Source: Flavobacteriales bacterium | Lineage (GTDB): Bacteria; Bacteroidota; Bacteroidia; Flavobacteriales_G; JALEGO01 | Length of the DNA: 38,479 nt | Direction of reading: 5' to 3' | Assembly (NCBI GenBank): GCA_020631045.1 | Contig: JAHDHZ010000024.1 | Coordinates: forward strand, 1-38,479 | Part shown: positions 1,320-37,139 of the stretch, piece after piece | Numbering within the stretch: the stretch's first letter is position 1 | Layout: each line of letters begins with the position of its first letter | Program-made: the position numbers and the translations under genes | The notes under the pieces: model-generated | Seen by the model: only the letters and a program-made list of their open reading frames with translations | Databases searched by the model: none | Told to the model about the DNA's origin: nothing

Positions 1320-2762
1320 ATGCAAAAAATTCTCAACTACATCGATGGCAAACATCAACAAGCTGTTTCTGGTCAGTTTTTAGACAATTACAATCCATCA
1401 ACTGGTGAAGTTTATAGCCTTATTGCTGACTCAGATGCGCAAGACATCGCCCATGCTTATAAAGCTGCTGAGAAAGCCTTTAAGGGTTGGAAAAACACTC
1501 CCACTGAAAAACGCGCTGCTATACTCTTAAAAATCGCCCAACTCATCAAAGAAAATTTAGAGGAATTAGCCAAAGCTGAAAGCATTGACAATGGTAAACC
1601 TTTGTGGCTTGCAAAAGCGGTTGATATACCTAGAGCTGCTAGTAATTTTGAATTCTATGCCTCAGGCATCAAACACTGGGCATCAAATGCGCATTTCACT
1701 GACCAAATTGCGATCAACTACACCAAACATGAGCCTTATGGAGTAGTGGGCTGTATTTCTCCTTGGAATCTACCTTTGTATTTATTTTCTTGGAAAATAG
1801 CGCCAGCTTTAGCTGTTGGCAATACCGTGGTCGCTAAACCCAGTGAGGTGACACCTATGACGGCTTATTTACTGACTAAAATTTGTGATCAAGCAGGACT
1901 GCCAAAAGGGGTTTTAAATGTGGTGCACGGACTGGGTCAAAAAGCAGGTAACGCTCTTGTTGAACACCCCAAAATTGAAGTGATTTCGTTTACTGGAGGC
2001 ACTAAAACTGGAGCTGAAATTGCAAGCAAGTGCGCCCCACATTTCAAAAAACTCTCTTTAGAACTGGGGGGTAAAAACCCCAACATTATTTTTGATGATT
2101 GTGATTTTGAAAAAGCAGTCGACACTTCTGTAAAAGCAAGTTTTTCAAACCAAGGGCAGATTTGTTTGTGTGGATCACGCATTTTAGTGCACGCCTCTAT
2201 CTATGAAAAGTTTAAAGCGGCTTTTGTAGAAAAATCGAACGCTTTGAATGTAGGAGACCCTCTTGAAAAGAGCTCTAATTTAGGAGCTGTGGTGAGCAAA
2301 GAGCACATGCACAAAATCTTAGCTTGTGTTGAGCAGGCAAAACAAGAAGGGGGCACCATTTTATTGGGTGGAAAGCGCCTAAACTTAAGTGGTAAACTCA
2401 AAGACGGCTATTATGTTGAACCCACCATCATAGAAGGATTAGATAATAACTGCAAAACCAATCAAGAAGAAATCTTTGGCCCAGTAGTGACACTTCAGTC
2501 TTTTGAAGACGAAGATCAGGCTATTGCTTTGGCAAACGACACCAGATACGGATTATCAGCCACCATTTTTACAGAAAACCTCTCTAGAGCACATCGTGTT
2601 TCAAATAAACTACAAGCGGGGCTTATTTGGGTAAATACTTGGCTACTGAGAGATTTACGCACGCCTTTTGGAGGCGTTAAACAATCGGGGATTGGCAGAG
2701 AGGGAGGGTTTAAGGCTTTTAAATTTTTTACCCAGACAAAAAATGTGTGTATTAAGGTTTAG
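1320..2762 (+). CDS. aldehyde dehydrogenase (2-aminomuconic/2-hydroxymuconic semialdehyde dehydrogenase-like)
   Basis: ALDH motifs LELGGKNPNIIFDDCD and FSNQGQICLCGSRILV (catalytic Cys), GGVKQSGIGREGG C-terminal motif. Confidence 0.9.
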   Translation: MQKILNYIDGKHQQAVSGQFLDNYNPSTGEVYSLIADSDAQDIAHAYKAAEKAFKGWKNTPTEKRAAILLKIAQLIKENLEELAKAESIDNGKPLWLAKAVDIPRAASNFEFYASGIKHWASNAHFTDQIAINYTKHEPYGVVGCISPWNLPLYLFSWKIAPALAVGNTVVAKPSEVTPMTAYLLTKICDQAGLPKGVLNVVHGLGQKAGNALVEHPKIEVISFTGGTKTGAEIASKCAPHFKKLSLELGGKNPNIIFDDCDFEKAVDTSVKASFSNQGQICLCGSRILVHASIYEKFKAAFVEKSNALNVGDPLEKSSNLGAVVSKEHMHKILACVEQAKQEGGTILLGGKRLNLSGKLKDGYYVEPTIIEGLDNNCKTNQEEIFGPVVTLQSFEDEDQAIALANDTRYGLSATIFTENLSRAHRVSNKLQAGLIWVNTWLLRDLRTPFGGVKQSGIGREGGFKAFKFFTQTKNVCIKV

Positions 2763-2790
2763 TTTTTTTTATCGAGTACTCAAAAAAGAG

Positions 2791-2897
2791 CAGAAAAATT
2801 GTAAAGCAGCGCCAGCATGTGTGCCAAAAAAATCAGGCGAAGCAATCTGATTTTTTAAGAGGGTTTGCTAATTTTTCTAGCGATTTTTTGTCATGAG
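2791..2897 (+). repeat. dispersed intergenic element, copy A
   Basis: ~83% identical by hand alignment to the reverse complement of 15723-15831; internal stem AAAAAATCAG/CTGATTTTTT around a GCGAAGCAAT loop. Confidence 0.8.
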
Positions 2898-2907
2898 ATA
2901 AAAAAGG

Positions 2908-3795
2908 CTAAACAATCACCTGCAAAGCTTTTTCTAAAACCTTAAACTCTACCTGCTGTTCACAGCGAAAAGGCTCTCCATCTAAATGCATAAAATTGCT
3001 AGTACTCTTCAATTTTAATTGTTTTACAGATATACGCTGATAGCAAACATGTCGATCAACACGTTTTGCAAATACCATCAAAGCTAATGTAATGGCTTGC
3101 CAAAAAGTTGGTTTTTTAAATATGCAAACCTCGAATAATCCATCATCAAATTTGGCCTTAGGAGCAATAAAGGCATTGTTTCCGAACTGAGTGCCATTGG
3201 CAATGCTAAACATAAAACAAGATTGTTTGTGCCACTTACCTTGATATTGATATTCAATCTCAATAGACTGATAAGCTTTAAATTCTTTGAGTATTAACTT
3301 CGTGTAGGTACGCAGTCCTCGAGTTTTTAGCTCAGAGAACAAGTGGGCTATGTGAGCATCAAATCCAATCCCTGCAACATTGATGAAAAACTCATTACCC
3401 ATTTGTACAACATCAATTTCTTTGGTTTTGGTTGCAAGTAATTTCTGCAAGTTTTTTTTGGGCGGATGATTCAGCCCTACAGCTCTTGCAAAACCATTCC
3501 CTGATCCGCATGGAAGCACTGAGAAAAACACATCTCTCAAGCCTACTAAAGCACCTACTACTTTATTAACCGTACCGTCTCCACCCACAGCAATAAATAC
3601 ATTATAACCCAAGCTATAGCCTTTTTGAACCAACTCAGGTTCTCTTTGCTTGTCAGAAGTGTAAAGTATATTGTAATCAATTTTCTTATGCTTATTGAAA
3701 AATTGCTCAAGCTTTTGCAACAATTTTTGCTTAGATCGCCCTCCTGAAATGGGATTTACAATAAAACAGTAGCGGTATTTATTTGTTTGTTTCAA
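2908..3795 (-). CDS. diacylglycerol kinase family lipid kinase (YegS/DgkB-like)
   Basis: VNPISGGRS, AVGGDGTVNKVV and LPCGSGNGFAR motifs. Confidence 0.92.
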   Translation of the reverse strand: MKQTNKYRYCFIVNPISGGRSKQKLLQKLEQFFNKHKKIDYNILYTSDKQREPELVQKGYSLGYNVFIAVGGDGTVNKVVGALVGLRDVFFSVLPCGSGNGFARAVGLNHPPKKNLQKLLATKTKEIDVVQMGNEFFINVAGIGFDAHIAHLFSELKTRGLRTYTKLILKEFKAYQSIEIEYQYQGKWHKQSCFMFSIANGTQFGNNAFIAPKAKFDDGLFEVCIFKKPTFWQAITLALMVFAKRVDRHVCYQRISVKQLKLKSTSNFMHLDGEPFRCEQQVEFKVLEKALQVIV

Positions 3796-15223: not shown

Positions 15224-15709
15224 GTGCAGCTAATTGATGTTATTATTTTATTGCCCTTACTTTATGGTTTTTACAAAGGCTATCGACAAGGACTAATCTA
15301 TGAGTTGATCTCTTTGATTTCTTTATTTGTAGCGGTATATTGCGCGTTTAAATTCTCATTTATTGCCACACATTATGTGCAGAGTAATGGGTGGATTTCT
15401 GAGCAGTACAGTTCAATTGTGGGTTTTGTACTGACCTTTATTCTGGCCATTATCTTAATTCAGTTTGTAGGCAAGATGATCAACACTTTCATCAAAGCTT
15501 TGAAACTTACCACGGTAAATAAACTTTTGGGTGGATGTTTTGGTGCTTTGAAATTGTTTGTTTTTGTCTCTGCCTTTTTATTGGCTATTGATGCAGCGAA
15601 TGAAAAATTTGCATTTATTGAGCCTTCGGTTTTAGAGGCTAGCGTGTTGTATAAACCTGCTGTTAGTGTGGCGCAGGTGTTGGTGCCTTATGTGAGGGGA
15701 TTGTTTTAA
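15224..15709 (+). CDS. CvpA family membrane protein
   Basis: MQLIDVIILLPLLYGFYKGYRQGLIYELISLISLF, 4 TM; GTG start. Confidence 0.88.
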   Translation: MQLIDVIILLPLLYGFYKGYRQGLIYELISLISLFVAVYCAFKFSFIATHYVQSNGWISEQYSSIVGFVLTFILAIILIQFVGKMINTFIKALKLTTVNKLLGGCFGALKLFVFVSAFLLAIDAANEKFAFIEPSVLEASVLYKPAVSVAQVLVPYVRGLF

Positions 15710-15722
15710 GTAGATTTCTTCA

Positions 15723-15831
15723 CTCATCACATAAAATCGTCTAGAAAAATGAGCAAACCCGCCTAAAAAATCGGAATGCTTCGCCCGGTTTTTTTTGTCG
15801 CATAGGCCAGCGCTGCTTTGCACTTTTTCTG
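15723..15831 (-). repeat. dispersed intergenic element, copy B
   Basis: Reverse complement matches 2791-2897 (~17 mismatches and 2 single-nt gaps by hand); conserved GCGAAGC loop. Confidence 0.8.
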
Positions 15832-15880
15832 CCGATTTTACGATTGATTCGTTCAGAAACTACTTAAAATCTCCTACACC

Positions 15881-16579
15881 TTAACCCTGCTCAGTTCTAT
15901 TGTAGTCCCAAAAAATACGGCAAGCCTTCTGGTCAGCATCTTTCTTTGAACCAGAGACGCCCACTGTTTGCACATCTCCATCAATAAATAGAGTAGCCAA
16001 AAACTTTTTTTGAGGCAATTCTTGAGACTCTAATTTCCATTTTTTGCCCATACGTTGCGCCCACTCAATCACCTCTCCTTTATAGTTATGTGCTTTTTCA
16101 CTAGCCATGTTTAAATCAATGTGTCGATCAAAAAATTGTACTACTACTTTTTGAGTGCGCTTGTAGCCTCGATCTAAATAAATCGCTCCAAAAAGTGATT
16201 CTAAGGCATTGCCATAAACAGAAGTGCGTTCACTTAAATTTCTGCCATCAGTTTTAAGCATTTGATCGACGCCTATTTCTCTGGCGATCTTGCCCAATGT
16301 TTTGCGACTCAATAAAAAAGATTTGAGTTTGGTGAGCTCTCCTTCAGTTTTGTCATCGAAGCGCTGCATTAAATAATCTCTAATAATCAACTCAATTACG
16401 CCATCTCCTAAAAACTCTAAGCGCTCAAAGGTACTTACCGCTGCTTTTTTCTCTTTGGAGGAATGTGTGAGGGCTTTTGAATACCAGTGGGTACGATATA
16501 CAAAAACACCAAACTTTTCATACATAAACCTTCTAATACTTGCCTTTGGCAAAAAAGGTATGAGAATTTGGCCTAACAT
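15881..16579 (-). CDS. rnc: ribonuclease III
   Basis: FERLEFLGDGVIELIIRDYL signature; ALESLFGAIYLDRGY; C-terminal dsRBD. Confidence 0.95.
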   Translation of the reverse strand: MLGQILIPFLPKASIRRFMYEKFGVFVYRTHWYSKALTHSSKEKKAAVSTFERLEFLGDGVIELIIRDYLMQRFDDKTEGELTKLKSFLLSRKTLGKIAREIGVDQMLKTDGRNLSERTSVYGNALESLFGAIYLDRGYKRTQKVVVQFFDRHIDLNMASEKAHNYKGEVIEWAQRMGKKWKLESQELPQKKFLATLFIDGDVQTVGVSGSKKDADQKACRIFWDYNRTEQG

Positions 16580-23816: not shown

Positions 23817-26144
23817 TTATTTAACCAGCTTTTGAATCAAAAGACGTTGATTGTGTTGATCAACAACATTCAAGTAATAAATGCCCTTTGATAGTTTTTG
23901 GGTGGATAATGTAACTTGATTTGAGTTTGTAGGTTGTTCGACGACCACCGCCCCTAGGTTGTCGAACAACCTGATTTTAGAAGATGGAGTTAAACCAGAA
24001 ATAAAGAGTTGCTCTTTAAAAGGGTTAGGAAAGACCTTTAGCTCACTTTTATTCATCAGCGAGGTTGACGTAGGAATATCAAGCCCTGTGGTGAAATTCC
24101 ATACATCACTCCACTGAGAGGTGTCTTGCCCTGTAATGTAGGCGGCTCTCCAATAATAAGTTGTTTGAGGTAATAAATTACTTGATACCTCAAATTCTGT
24201 ATCTGTATTATTGGGTGATTGATCAATATAATCTGTCATCTGCTCTTGTAGTAGTGCAGAAGAAAAATCAGCTGCAGTGTCTAGCTGCAAAATATAATGC
24301 TCAACTTGATCGACTGATTTGAAATCTAAAGTAGGTTGTAAAATCACGTCTTGGGCATTTGTTTGAGGATCACTCAAGACCACCGTGTTTTTATAAATAC
24401 CCGTAATGTTTATATCATCAATGTAAATGTTGTTTCCTCCCTTGCCGGTAAACTCAAACTTAAATTGAAAGCCTTCTTTCAAGAAAAAGTTAGGAATACT
24501 AGCCGTAAAGCTCTTCCAATCATCATCTGATGAAGGCACAAATGCAGCTGTTTGAGGCTCAACACTCTTTAATGTTGGACCCAATCTGAGTGAGCGCATC
24601 AACCAAGTATTTCCACAATCTGAAGAAATTAATAACCTCAAAGCATCTTGATCAGTTGCTTGCTTTTGAGCATAAGCCACTTTATAGGTCATGGTAGCTG
24701 ATAGCATTGGGCTTAAATCTAAACCAGAACTGTATAGCGTTGATGTTTGCTCAGTAGTTGATGAAAAATTATTAATCGAAACACTGCTTGTGCTTTGATA
24801 TCCTACAGTTGAATTAATTTGAAACGGGTATTGGTCTTCGTCAACCATCCATTTGTTTGAAGGAATTACATCAGCCTCAAAGCTTTCTTGATAAGGTAAG
24901 AAGTTTTGCTGAGGATCAACCACCAAAACAAAAGACTGCTTAAGCGCACTCAAGGTATTTTGCGTATTTGAAACCTGCAACAATACATCATACAAACCAG
25001 GCTGATCATAGAGCACTTCTTGCTTGGGTTCAATAGAAGATGACGGGCTTGCACCTGAAAAACTCCAAGTTCGATCACATACTCCATACTCAGAAAAATC
25101 TTGGTACAATACAGTATCTTGCCTACAAACAATTTTTTTATCTACATCAACACGCACCTCAACCAACTGACTTACACCTGTTGCATTTAAATTGCTTTGA
25201 GTAGATAAGTTGTTGCGATCAGAAATAGATGAGTTTAAGGTGTTTTGCATTCTAAGGGCCTGTCCTTCTGTAAACATGGCATTACAAAAAGAATACTCCA
25301 TGTAATTTTGAATATTATCTAGACTTGAGCATGACTCACCTGATAGGTTACATGAACTCCAACCAACCGTGTTGGGCGTGTCAAATACTCCATCATCGTC
25401 AAAACAATTGTCAGGCAATCCTGGGTCATTTGACCCTCCCCAGAGATGGTCTAAATTTAACCAATGACCGATTTCATGTGTCAAAGTTCTCTCATCGAAT
25501 CCAATCACATCAGCTCTACAAAAAATGGCATCGTTTTCAGGATTGTTTTGCATCCATGCGGGCAAATAAGTAAATCCACCAATGCCTTCACCTACTGTTC
25601 TGCCTGTATATACATTTAGGTATTTAGAACGTGGCCATTGACGATTGTCTGTCCAAGGGCTTGAAAAACTGGGTGCATCTGTCGTTTGAGTGGTTTCGTA
25701 TCGAACAATGCCTGTTGTTGGATTGCCAAAAGGATCAATGCGTGCCAATCGAAACTCAAAGCCCGCATTGCCAATAATTGATTTAAAAGCATCAATTACT
25801 TCAGAAGTATCAGCATTTTGCTTATTAAAATCAAGGTTTAAACGTCTTACTTGCTCATGAATGGTTTCATCTGAAAGATTTTCACTGCCATTGTTGTGCA
25901 ACACGTGAAACACGATAGGAATAATGTAATTGCTTCCACAAGAAGTGCTTTGAGCAGACTTTTGTTGTAAGTTTTGATCAGCGCCCTGGTCAAGCAAGCT
26001 TTGTGCTTGTTTGATGTTTTGATATTCTAGCGGATCGTTTTGCTTAATGTACTCTATGTAATCATAAGTAGAACAGGCATGCTGAGCAGTAAGATTACTC
26101 AAAGCCACCCATAGAACACTAAATGTTAAACAAAGATTTCTCAT
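23817..26144 (-). CDS. secreted M43 (pappalysin-like) zinc metalloprotease with PKD, jelly-roll-like, FN3-like and T9SS type A domains
   Basis: LTHEIGHWLNLDHLWG (HExxHxxxxxH), NYMEYSFC (Met-turn), PKD-like region, C-terminal FPNPFKEQLFISGL...KGIYYLNVVDQ. Confidence 0.92.
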   Translation of the reverse strand: MRNLCLTFSVLWVALSNLTAQHACSTYDYIEYIKQNDPLEYQNIKQAQSLLDQGADQNLQQKSAQSTSCGSNYIIPIVFHVLHNNGSENLSDETIHEQVRRLNLDFNKQNADTSEVIDAFKSIIGNAGFEFRLARIDPFGNPTTGIVRYETTQTTDAPSFSSPWTDNRQWPRSKYLNVYTGRTVGEGIGGFTYLPAWMQNNPENDAIFCRADVIGFDERTLTHEIGHWLNLDHLWGGSNDPGLPDNCFDDDGVFDTPNTVGWSSCNLSGESCSSLDNIQNYMEYSFCNAMFTEGQALRMQNTLNSSISDRNNLSTQSNLNATGVSQLVEVRVDVDKKIVCRQDTVLYQDFSEYGVCDRTWSFSGASPSSSIEPKQEVLYDQPGLYDVLLQVSNTQNTLSALKQSFVLVVDPQQNFLPYQESFEADVIPSNKWMVDEDQYPFQINSTVGYQSTSSVSINNFSSTTEQTSTLYSSGLDLSPMLSATMTYKVAYAQKQATDQDALRLLISSDCGNTWLMRSLRLGPTLKSVEPQTAAFVPSSDDDWKSFTASIPNFFLKEGFQFKFEFTGKGGNNIYIDDINITGIYKNTVVLSDPQTNAQDVILQPTLDFKSVDQVEHYILQLDTAADFSSALLQEQMTDYIDQSPNNTDTEFEVSSNLLPQTTYYWRAAYITGQDTSQWSDVWNFTTGLDIPTSTSLMNKSELKVFPNPFKEQLFISGLTPSSKIRLFDNLGAVVVEQPTNSNQVTLSTQKLSKGIYYLNVVDQHNQRLLIQKLVK

Positions 26145-34277: not shown

Positions 34278-34366
34278 GAGCAGGGCTTTTGGAAAAAGTC
34301 TTTTGCAGAGCGGTCAAAGATAAACTTTGAATGCTTTGCAAAAGACTTTTTCCAAAAGCCCTGCTC
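34278..34366. repeat. 89-bp long palindrome (42-bp arms, 5-nt loop)
   Basis: 34278-34319 versus reverse complement of 34325-34366: 39/42 identical, the outer 30 bp perfect. Confidence 0.9.
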
Positions 34367-34442: not shown

Positions 34443-37139
34443 ATGAAAAAACTTTATGCTCTTACACAAATTATTCTGCTATCTATAATTTCATTATCAC
34501 AAACTGGTATTGGGTGTGACCAAGCAATAAATCTTGCTGGAAATTCAGGAAATGTTACCTTCAACACCTCAACATCTCAAAGTGCTTTCAACGGTGGAAA
34601 CTTTGGTCTAGGGAATTTCATTTGCCCTTTTGATAACGACGGAAAAGATCTTGTTTACAAACTAAATAATCAAATACCCGCAGGCTACACAATTTATGTT
34701 TGGGGAGAAAGTATTTCAGCCGATCCCTACGTTACCTTAACAATAGATAGTTGTTTAGGCGAAGATCAAAGCTGCAAACCCTTATCAAATGACTTGTTGG
34801 CTTGGTACAACAACACAGGCGTAAATAAAGATGCATACCTAATCATTGATCAAGAAAACTCAAGTGTTGGATCTGGAATTTTACATTGGGAGATCAAACA
34901 ACAAACTAATGGCAACACTTGTAACGATGCTATTGTTCTAAGTGGCACTTCAGGGATGGTAAACATAAGTAACAATCAACCGAATTTAATAAACACTTTT
35001 ACTTCTTCGTTTTGTGGCTCTTCAGATGCTTCAGACGTTGTCATGCAGTTAGATCTTGTGCCAGATGGTTACAGTCTTTATATAAATCATGTTAAAAGCA
35101 GTCAGAATATTGATATTATAGCTTATCAAAATGATTGTAACTCAATCAACAATAGCTTAGATATTTGTTTGGGCGACAATCAAAGCGCCATTTGGGAAAA
35201 CAACTCAGGCGCTAGCCAGCAGATTTATCTAATCCTAGACGGTGAAGAATCATATAACACAGGAGGCAGTCAAATAGAATGGGAAATTTTTCAAACTCAA
35301 CCAGGAAATACTTGTGAGAACGCAATTTCACTTACTGGTTCAAACGGCACAATAAATTACAATACTGATCAGACTTACTATTCTGACAATTATTCTTCTT
35401 TTTGTGGAGGAAGCAATGGGAATGATGTTGTTTACAAGACTATTCCAGTACCTGCAGATTCAATTTTTACCGCATGGATAAACAACTCTAATCATGATCA
35501 TGTATTAACCGCATACCTTCATTGTGACTCAAGTCATTTAGATTGTGAAACAGACAATGATACTGTTGTTTGGTTCAACAACACAGGAAGCTCTCAAGAG
35601 CTTTTTATAGTAGTAGACGGACACTACGATAATGGAATGGGTGATTTAAACTGGAGCATCTCATCTCTTATACCCGCAGATGGCAACACATGTCAAAACT
35701 CTATTACTTTAACTGGTGATTCGGGTAGCTACGACTATAACACCAATAATATCTCTTTCACTAATTCTTCTAATTTTTCTTGTAATGAGGGAGGAAATGA
35801 CATCTACTTTTTAACACCTAACATACCAGTGGGTCATTCTATAAGCTTGTCAATTACTAATGATAATTACGATATTGTAATATATGCTGGATATGGATCA
35901 TGTGGTCAATTTACCGAAGTAATCTGTCATGACGAACCAGATAGTGAAATCCAATATTGGACTAATAACACAAACAGTCCTGTTCAACTCACCGTCGTTG
36001 TAGATGGTTGGGTTGGTGGATTTTTATCCAATGGCAATGGGGCTGGAAGCGGCACTCTAAATTGGGGTATTTCTGAGCCTACAACTAGTAACGCTCAGGG
36101 GCAATCTTGTGATAATCCCATTTCTCTGATGGGTTCACAAGGATCTTACACATACAACTCTTCTATAGATTATTCTAATGTGTCTACTTTTAATTGTAAT
36201 GCTGATGGTAATGATGTTTTCTTTGAGGTAGCAAATTCTATAAGCCCAGGACAATCTATACAAGTATGGTCCTCAAATGACAATTATGATGTGGTGTTTT
36301 CTGCAGGATATGGGTCTTGCAGTCAATTTACCGAAGTGATCTGCCATGATGACCCTGATGGTGACGTACAAACATGGACGAACAACACCAGTCAAAATCA
36401 AACACTGCTAATCATAACTGATGCATATAACTCTGGCGGAGGAGTTGCTGACTTAAATTGGCAAATCTTAGACTCTTCTTCTACTGGTATTGATTGTGAA
36501 TCTGCAATTCCATTAAGTGGTGTTTCTGGCTCGTACAACTATAACACCGACAATCTTACACTTCAAGATTTAAACTTATTATGCAATAGTGGTGGTAATG
36601 ACTTATATTTTGTTTTTTCTGAACAAGTTCCTTTTGAACATTATCTAAATGTGAGAACAGTAAACGATAATTATGACGTAGTACTGGGTGTTGGCTCAGG
36701 TTCTTGCTTAAATTTAACCCCACAACTTTGCCATGATGACCCTGATGGTGAGACTCAGAGCTGGTTTAATAATACCGGAACAGCACAACAAGTATTTGTT
36801 GTTGTTGATGGTTATAATGGGAGTAATGGTCAGGCAACCTTAGAATGGAATATTTCAGAAAATAATTTTCCAGTTTCAAGTACCTTAAAAAACAAAAAAA
36901 TAGGGTTTGATTTATATCCCAACCCAGCATCTGATCTAATCAACATCAATTTTCATGATTTTAATTCAAAAGAATTGTACATCGTTGAAATTACTGATGT
37001 TTTAGGTAAAACTGCTATTAAAGAAGCCTTAGGGTCTGCTGAACAAAGTTTTTCTATAAGTGCCCTGCCCTCTGGCTTTTACCATGCAATCATAAAAAGT
37101 GAAAACAATTCATATTCAGTCAATTTCTCTAAAAAATAA
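34443..37139 (+). CDS. secreted T9SS type A protein with six ~120-140-aa Cys-containing repeats
   Basis: Signal peptide; repeated [NTC].AI.L.G.SG..(Y)NT...C...GND...GSC...C(HDDPDGE)...W.NNTG...VVDG......L.W.I; C-terminal YPNPASDLININFHDF...PSGFYHAIIKSENNSYSVNF. Confidence 0.9.
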   Translation: MKKLYALTQIILLSIISLSQTGIGCDQAINLAGNSGNVTFNTSTSQSAFNGGNFGLGNFICPFDNDGKDLVYKLNNQIPAGYTIYVWGESISADPYVTLTIDSCLGEDQSCKPLSNDLLAWYNNTGVNKDAYLIIDQENSSVGSGILHWEIKQQTNGNTCNDAIVLSGTSGMVNISNNQPNLINTFTSSFCGSSDASDVVMQLDLVPDGYSLYINHVKSSQNIDIIAYQNDCNSINNSLDICLGDNQSAIWENNSGASQQIYLILDGEESYNTGGSQIEWEIFQTQPGNTCENAISLTGSNGTINYNTDQTYYSDNYSSFCGGSNGNDVVYKTIPVPADSIFTAWINNSNHDHVLTAYLHCDSSHLDCETDNDTVVWFNNTGSSQELFIVVDGHYDNGMGDLNWSISSLIPADGNTCQNSITLTGDSGSYDYNTNNISFTNSSNFSCNEGGNDIYFLTPNIPVGHSISLSITNDNYDIVIYAGYGSCGQFTEVICHDEPDSEIQYWTNNTNSPVQLTVVVDGWVGGFLSNGNGAGSGTLNWGISEPTTSNAQGQSCDNPISLMGSQGSYTYNSSIDYSNVSTFNCNADGNDVFFEVANSISPGQSIQVWSSNDNYDVVFSAGYGSCSQFTEVICHDDPDGDVQTWTNNTSQNQTLLIITDAYNSGGGVADLNWQILDSSSTGIDCESAIPLSGVSGSYNYNTDNLTLQDLNLLCNSGGNDLYFVFSEQVPFEHYLNVRTVNDNYDVVLGVGSGSCLNLTPQLCHDDPDGETQSWFNNTGTAQQVFVVVDGYNGSNGQATLEWNISENNFPVSSTLKNKKIGFDLYPNPASDLININFHDFNSKELYIVEITDVLGKTAIKEALGSAEQSFSISALPSGFYHAIIKSENNSYSVNFSKK

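Follow-up and report, generated by a model that had tools for sequence, protein, structure and literature searches.

When REP, IS200/IS605, and attC elements move, folds adopted by single-stranded DNA matter. REPs are defined as stem-loops of 20–40 bp that carry a conserved GTAG/CGTC tetranucleotide tag and are associated with a RAYT (PMC3733652). Point mutation does not readily produce long perfect stems. Their origin is an open question, and template switching can generate a perfect stem in one event that is favored or primed by stable loops (PMC8794818). Here, we describe a repeat family (family 1) from the window, the stretch of 38,479 nucleotides of a Flavobacteriales genome that was analyzed, and a second family of the same design. 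Family 1 resembles REPs and BIMEs in that its palindromes are scattered among intergenic regions, both convergent and co-directional, and form a strand-asymmetric hairpin, but it differs in its unit of ~145 bp and in its copy-specific outer arms, which REPs are without (PMC3733652).

We interpret family 1 as a non-autonomous, strand-specific DNA-hairpin element that would serve as an orientation-neutral 3'-end hairpin and whose arms would be copied from the local flank, and we assign this reading as a whole a probability of roughly 45%. A literature search returned no description of this element, nor of any dispersed core whose perfect arms are copy-specific, which, given the incomplete coverage of the search, is weak evidence of novelty.

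The earlier note had reported a ~107-bp unit with a second, reverse-complemented copy 13 kb away at ~83% identity. In a blastn comparison of the window and fetched loci, positions 2791–2897 align with the reverse complement of 15723–15831 at 81.4% identity over 118 columns (E = 7e-26), which bears out the second copy (copy B) and its opposite orientation relative to the first (copy A). A gapped alignment concurs, and both copies are among the top inverted repeats of the window in an inverted-repeat scan. The repeat is therefore real, but the size given for it was too small: a covariance model (R1) built from an alignment of 16 copies (A2) has 133 positions, and the unit measures ~145 bp once the conserved T-run/A-run on both sides is counted.

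When copy A was used as a blastn query, 17 places were recovered in its own genome (E < 1e-7), a 2.34-Mb draft in 86 contigs with a completeness of 98.6% and a contamination of 0.05%. Relatives of a protein encoded in the window occur in draft genomes of Flavobacteriales and of other Bacteroidota. R1 identified 19 full-length copies there, including 17 beyond copies A and B, which agrees with the proposal of an unannotated dispersed family. Core identity between copies is 67–88%. Two further copies are partial, one cut by a contig end (C49:37749) and the other a half copy (C82:34815). In this half copy (locus L055, C82:34815–34935), the 5' half is intact and stops at the central A-run, beyond which the sequence is unrelated; the break is possibly a deletion or an insertion junction. 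R1 had no matches in the three remaining genomes of the family. The same was true of the other 41 genomes of the order and the other 394 drawn from the class, where the stricter filters used could let weak matches escape. The element also had no matches in plasmids and phages screened by blastn or in viral contigs screened by pattern scans, and no Rfam family matched at its gathering score in the window and nine further loci.

Folds of the individual copies, read on the + strand of copy A, yield one long hairpin each. Outermost are the outer arms (10–33 aligned positions in most copies), followed by a short T-run/A-run. Next inward, GAACGAATC faces GATGAGTGA through the pairs G·A, A·G, A-T, C-G, G·A, A·G, A-T, T-A, and C-G, and thus forms two tandem G·A steps. 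Column counts for the inner of these show G·A in 14 of 16 copies and A·G in 14 of 16, and the pair adjoining this motif covaries, alternating among A-T, G-C, and T-A between copies. Further inward are a covarying A/T stem and then a conserved stem (CAKAAAAATTGCAAAGC/GTTTGCTNATTTTTMTAG), inside which a conserved and mostly unpaired strand (GCAGSGCNGGCCTGTGCGCC) lies opposite AAGAGGG. The tip is a central hairpin, AAAAAATCAGG-CGAAGCA-CTGATTTTTT, and its stem shows A-T/G-C exchanges. The description of the core as an A/T-flanked stem was correct; however, the sequences proposed as outer ends (AGAAAAATT/AATTTTTCT) both belong to an inner stem, and the real outer ends are the copy-specific arms. 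The imperfect inverted ends of the unit (TTTTCTGAACGAATC/GATGAGTGAAGAAAA) are also part of the conserved fold. The strand-specific tandem G·A module offers a route to a protein that would recognize the element. A hammerhead ribozyme was considered and rejected; CGAA...(C)TGATGAG resembles a permuted hammerhead core, but because only one stem separates the two motifs, with no room for a third helix, they are read as tandem G·A pairs.

The inner stems covary. Changes on both sides are seen in 13 of 33 pairs, including pairs in helix 4 (the central hairpin), and the covariation score of 0.234 compares with 0.097 for shuffled and at most 0.068 for slid alignments (0 of 500 shuffles attained it). 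With RNA parameters, 18 of 19 copies fold better as the element strand than as the complement, and with DNA parameters all 19 do, the copies being related and thus not 19 independent tests. Relative to dinucleotide shuffles, the whole hairpins of copies A and B have z-scores of -5.5 and -5.2, respectively, and so are not due to chance.

Table 1. Features of the repeat elements within the window.
Feature	Position	Strand	Evidence and remarks
Copy A, conserved unit	2770..2900	+	R1, 130 bits, positions 1-133/133; alignment A2
Copy A, 5' outer arm, copy-specific	2757..2773	+	GTTTAGTTTTTTTTATC; pairs with 2897-2913; stem seen in fold; extends over final codon and stop codon of aldehyde dehydrogenase gene (ends 2762)
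Copy A, GA of inner tandem G·A motif	2774..2775	+	Column counts (16 copies), covarying neighbors
Copy A, central hairpin (A7-TCAGG-loop-CTGA-T6), resembles terminator in either direction	2826..2856		Sequence, fold, helix 4 covariation
Copy A, partner GA of tandem G·A motif	2895..2896	+	Column counts, covarying neighbors
Copy A, 3' outer arm, copy-specific	2897..2913	+	GATAAAAAAGGCTAAAC; fold; covers stop codon of convergent lipid-kinase gene (ends 2908)
Copy B, conserved unit, opposite orientation	15720..15854	-	R1, 137.6 bits; alignment A2
Copy B, 5' outer arm (element orientation), RNase III side	15855..15869	-	TTTTAAGTAG-TTTCT pairs with 15704-15719; fold
Copy B, 3' outer arm (element orientation)	15704..15719	-	AGAAATCTACTTAAAA; fold; contains cvpA stop codon 15707-15709
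Copy B, central terminator-like hairpin	15765..15796		Sequence, folds
Family 2 hairpin element, core GCATTCAAAGTTTATCTTTGACCGC, copy-specific arms	34294..34350	-	Model R2, 69.7 bits; A3 covariation
Family 2 hairpin with full arms, 32 bp per side of 25-nt core	34278..34366		Inverted repeat with 42-nt arms, pair counts; between MscS-type channel gene and T9SS-secreted protein gene

Every family 1 copy is flanked by inverted arms, of 10–33 bp in most copies, that are paired within a copy and unrelated between copies. When every non-Watson–Crick pair is scored as a mismatch, the arms of a copy pair with each other at scores of 15–54 compared to a cross-copy mean of 9.2 and maximum of 23, and 391 of 439 aligned arm positions are Watson–Crick. 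Arm identity is independent of core identity (Spearman rho of about 0.02, p = 0.79), and the arms of copy pairs with 86–88% identical cores are no closer than those of other pairs. This independence indicates that the arms did not drift alongside the core and that the unit has a sharp edge, which lies some six bases beyond the G·A motif on its outer side. The arms are AT-rich with T-runs on their inner side, and no T-run follows them. Their mispairs include 17 G·T versus 6 A·C (p = 0.035), an excess that hints at selection at the RNA level.

Pfam assignments confirm that both copies in the window lie between convergent genes, as had been proposed. Copy A separates an aldehyde dehydrogenase (Aldedh, 1320–2762, +) from a diacylglycerol-kinase family protein (2908–3795, -) and copy B separates a CvpA/Colicin_V protein (15224–15709, +) from RNase III (15881–16579, -). 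Gene calls elsewhere were based on long open frames, matches in a same-genus genome, and recognizable products, Pfam confirmation being confined to the window genes. Of the full-length copies, 17 have a gene on either side; nine of these are in convergent, eight in co-directional, and none in divergent contexts, and in 15 of the 17 the nearer gene end is no more than about 45 bases from the model. Were one site in four expected to be divergent, a proportion that is assumed and is not a measured genome value, the probability of observing none in 17 would be about 0.008. The outcome that the earlier note set as refuting, no preference for convergent sites, was not seen (9 of 17 are convergent), although the preference extends to gene 3' ends generally. 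The element runs with transcription at four of the eight co-directional sites and against it at the other four.

Placement of this kind, together with the A-run/stem/T-run organization of the central hairpin, is consistent with the suggested role as a bidirectional terminator, but a simple terminator scan lists the central hairpin in neither copy A nor copy B. The hairpin has T6–T8 on both strands, few G-C pairs, and a loop of 8–12. Judging from sequence and position, a bidirectional terminator role is a plausible prediction. Intrinsic bidirectional terminators likewise lie between convergent genes and share an A-run/stem/T-run hairpin; unlike family 1, however, they do not make up sequence families that share a conserved 145-bp fold and carry tandem G·A modules.

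A second family was found through a scan for long inverted repeats, which recovered positions 34278–34366 of the window and other hairpins with the core GC-ATT-CAAAG-TTTAC-CTTTG-TCA-GC. The cores of families 1 and 2 are unrelated, and their architecture is alike in the same genome. The earlier note had overlooked this second family, as well as the paired outer arms and the strand-specific tandem G·A motif of family 1. Searching with the core pattern and no arm requirement yielded nine family 2 sites, with long arms at all sites where both sides are readable, and a second covariance model (R2) places about 50 distinct sites in the genome (83 rows with both strands counted). R2 had no hits when 394 other genomes from the class were searched. 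Arms are about 23–47 bp long, with up to 34 perfect pairs. In the family 2 alignment (A3), 15 of 18 arm pairs are doubly changed, for a covariation score of 0.704 versus 0.152 when shuffled, and the arm pairs comprise 351 Watson–Crick, seven G·T, seven A·C, and nine other pairs, plus six gaps. Because G·T pairs are only as numerous as A·C pairs beside 351 Watson–Crick pairs, family 2 arms show no sign of tolerating G·T. Clusters of family 2 include four copies within 350 bp (C36:31910–32259) and nine on contig C45; the family was seen at loci L197–L205. A third long hairpin, with 34-nt imperfect arms and the loop CTCCTGATCCTTTCGGATCAAAGTTTC, sits immediately between a copy of family 1 and one of family 2 (L044:1687–1781) and may represent another core family.

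The element sits directly behind stop codons, facing either way, and caps a longer hairpin. Under the interpretation that we favor, its fold would be recognized as single-stranded DNA during spread. Once in place, the hairpin might act as a terminator or attenuator between convergent genes and as end protection for co-directional ones. The outer arms would be written and renewed locally by DNA templating, with the stable core promoting template switches of the fold-back type. Action of the fold as DNA is favored because the fold is strand-specific and conserved, yet its orientation relative to transcription is random. Local templating is proposed because the arms are nearly perfectly Watson–Crick, are unrelated between copies, and are of a style common to a second family with a different core; we put local writing of the outer arms at somewhat less than even odds. 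Selection on structure must also act, since templating that covered the whole stem would not have left the G·A mismatches in place. Evidence against the interpretation as a whole is that searches of the genome tied no transposase, recombinase, or target-site duplication to the element.

Hairpins attributed to template switching (PMC8794818), including the coding palindromes of Nematomorpha mitochondria (PMC6649704), are similar in having long, perfect Watson–Crick stems that are site- or species-specific. They differ in that they have no conserved dispersed core, whereas here two families with conserved cores carry the arms. The about 70 sites that each combine a conserved core with a site-specific stem can be regarded as replicates of the same event, which makes the question of stem origin testable. 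Small cores that, wherever they land, trigger inverted copying of the adjacent flank by fold-back template switching might constitute an arm-writing class of selfish hairpins; this broader proposal is on balance doubtful. If it were true, every copy would tip a long, nearly perfect stem of host sequence.

Among the alternatives, family 1 may comprise bidirectional 3'-end hairpins that act at the RNA level, as terminators and stabilizers of mRNA ends, with an old dispersal and arms kept paired by compensatory mutation. Location after stop codons and between convergent genes, the central hairpin, the strong covariation of the inner stems, the very stable RNA folds, and the excess of G·T over A·C in family 1 arms are all consistent with such a role, as is the similar placement of REPs at gene ends in other bacteria (PMC3733652). 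Stepwise divergence with the core, however, is not what the arms show, since they are unrelated even where cores are 86–88% identical. The strand-specific fold does not fit with an orientation that is random relative to transcription, and the outer arms lack trailing T-runs. Arms under selection as RNA should tolerate G·T, and family 2 arms have no excess of G·T over A·C. We consider the RNA-level alternative unlikely, with a real chance of being right.

IS elements of some families insert into the loops of palindromes. Similarly, the core could have inserted into the loops of pre-existing bidirectional terminator hairpins, such that the arms are the occupied target. The sharp unit boundary and the placement at gene ends would follow from such insertion. 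In the window scan, however, all intergenic hairpins of this size belong to families 1 and 2, the sole other one being in a coding region, and the other two convergent gene pairs in the window have spacers of 5–6 bp that leave no room. Moreover, the AT-rich arms with T-runs on their inner side are not terminator-like, and arms of up to 34 perfect pairs are unlikely to be a common pre-existing feature. No direct repeat of 2–10 bp indicative of a target-site duplication was found at the unit edges, the best-scoring placements being inside conserved sequence. Orthologous flanks were found for most copies in the same-genus genome, nearly all of which was covered, but the intergenic sequence there is too diverged to show whether a hairpin pre-existed. 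Collectively, we regard insertion into existing hairpins as quite unlikely.

Spread of a classical REP/BIME family by a RAYT (Y1) transposase would explain dispersed palindromic repeats at convergent and co-directional intergenic sites. Yet the genome has no matches to the Y1/RAYT transposase family (PF01797), which was detected in control genomes, and this refutes an active RAYT in the genome, although a RAYT may once have been present and been lost; furthermore, neither a conserved GTAG nor a conserved CGTC is present in alignment A2 or its flanks. With a unit of ~145 bp and arms that are not a REP feature (PMC3733652), family 1 does not fit the earlier description as REP-like, and we consider this origin very improbable. 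An even less credible explanation is that the palindromes are fold-back artefacts of assembly or amplification, as might be suspected for an 86-contig draft with several copies near contig ends, given that two unrelated cores each recur at 20–50 scattered sites where the arms end close to stop codons, that cores diverged to 67–88% identity are incompatible with random fold-back chimeras, and that the genome is nearly complete with little contamination.

The parallel suggestion of a MITE-like family is possible. Family 1 is short, non-coding, and multi-copy, with no gene of its own, and its imperfect inverted ends are ambiguous as terminal repeats because they also belong to the conserved fold; it differs in having flanks that form copy-specific inverted arms, no target-site duplication was found, and a partner transposase is not known. 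The same-genus genome (G001; loci L174, L105, L100, L196, L074, L175, and L058) contains two families that resemble MITEs and whose terminal inverted repeats are conserved, namely TAGAGCTAAATTGTGATAAAA (with a 103-nt interior in most copies) and AAGAAACTGTTTAGGTTTTA (with a 108-nt interior). Because both are MITE-like in the ordinary way, the copy-specific design does not extend to the genus as a whole.

Integron attC sites share with family 1 a single-strand fold, conserved mispaired positions, and copy-specific paired segments. In attC, however, the conserved boxes are outermost and the variable part is inside, a layout that is reversed in family 1. The integron integrase model TIGR02249 reached at best 110.7 bits for a segment in the genome, compared to a cut-off of 265, and three tyrosine recombinases were all below this cut-off. 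Identity as attC was rejected based on the inverse layout and the absence of an integrase above the cut-off. The best-scoring protein is a 359-aa tyrosine recombinase that resembles integron integrases (C50:35491–36282 of the same genome, G000), with 110.7 bits in its N-terminal part and profile positions 180–239 unmatched; the other two recombinases are encoded on contigs C74 and C81.

Loss of SbcCD was also considered as an explanation for the tolerance of palindromes. SbcD (TIGR00619) was undetected in 29 of 31 genomes of the order (G000–G030), that is, in this genome but also in 28 others, and its loss was rejected as an explanation, being permissive at most. Long palindromes may be tolerated across the whole order. 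Elsewhere in the window, a 17-bp inverted repeat (TAGGTTGTTCGACGACC/GGTTGTCGAACAACCTG) occurs at 23930–23973 within the 3' end of a gene for an M43-peptidase/T9SS protein, and imperfect direct repeats of 113-nt units that are 62–76% alike occur at 35703–36775 in the gene for a T9SS-secreted protein (34443–37139).
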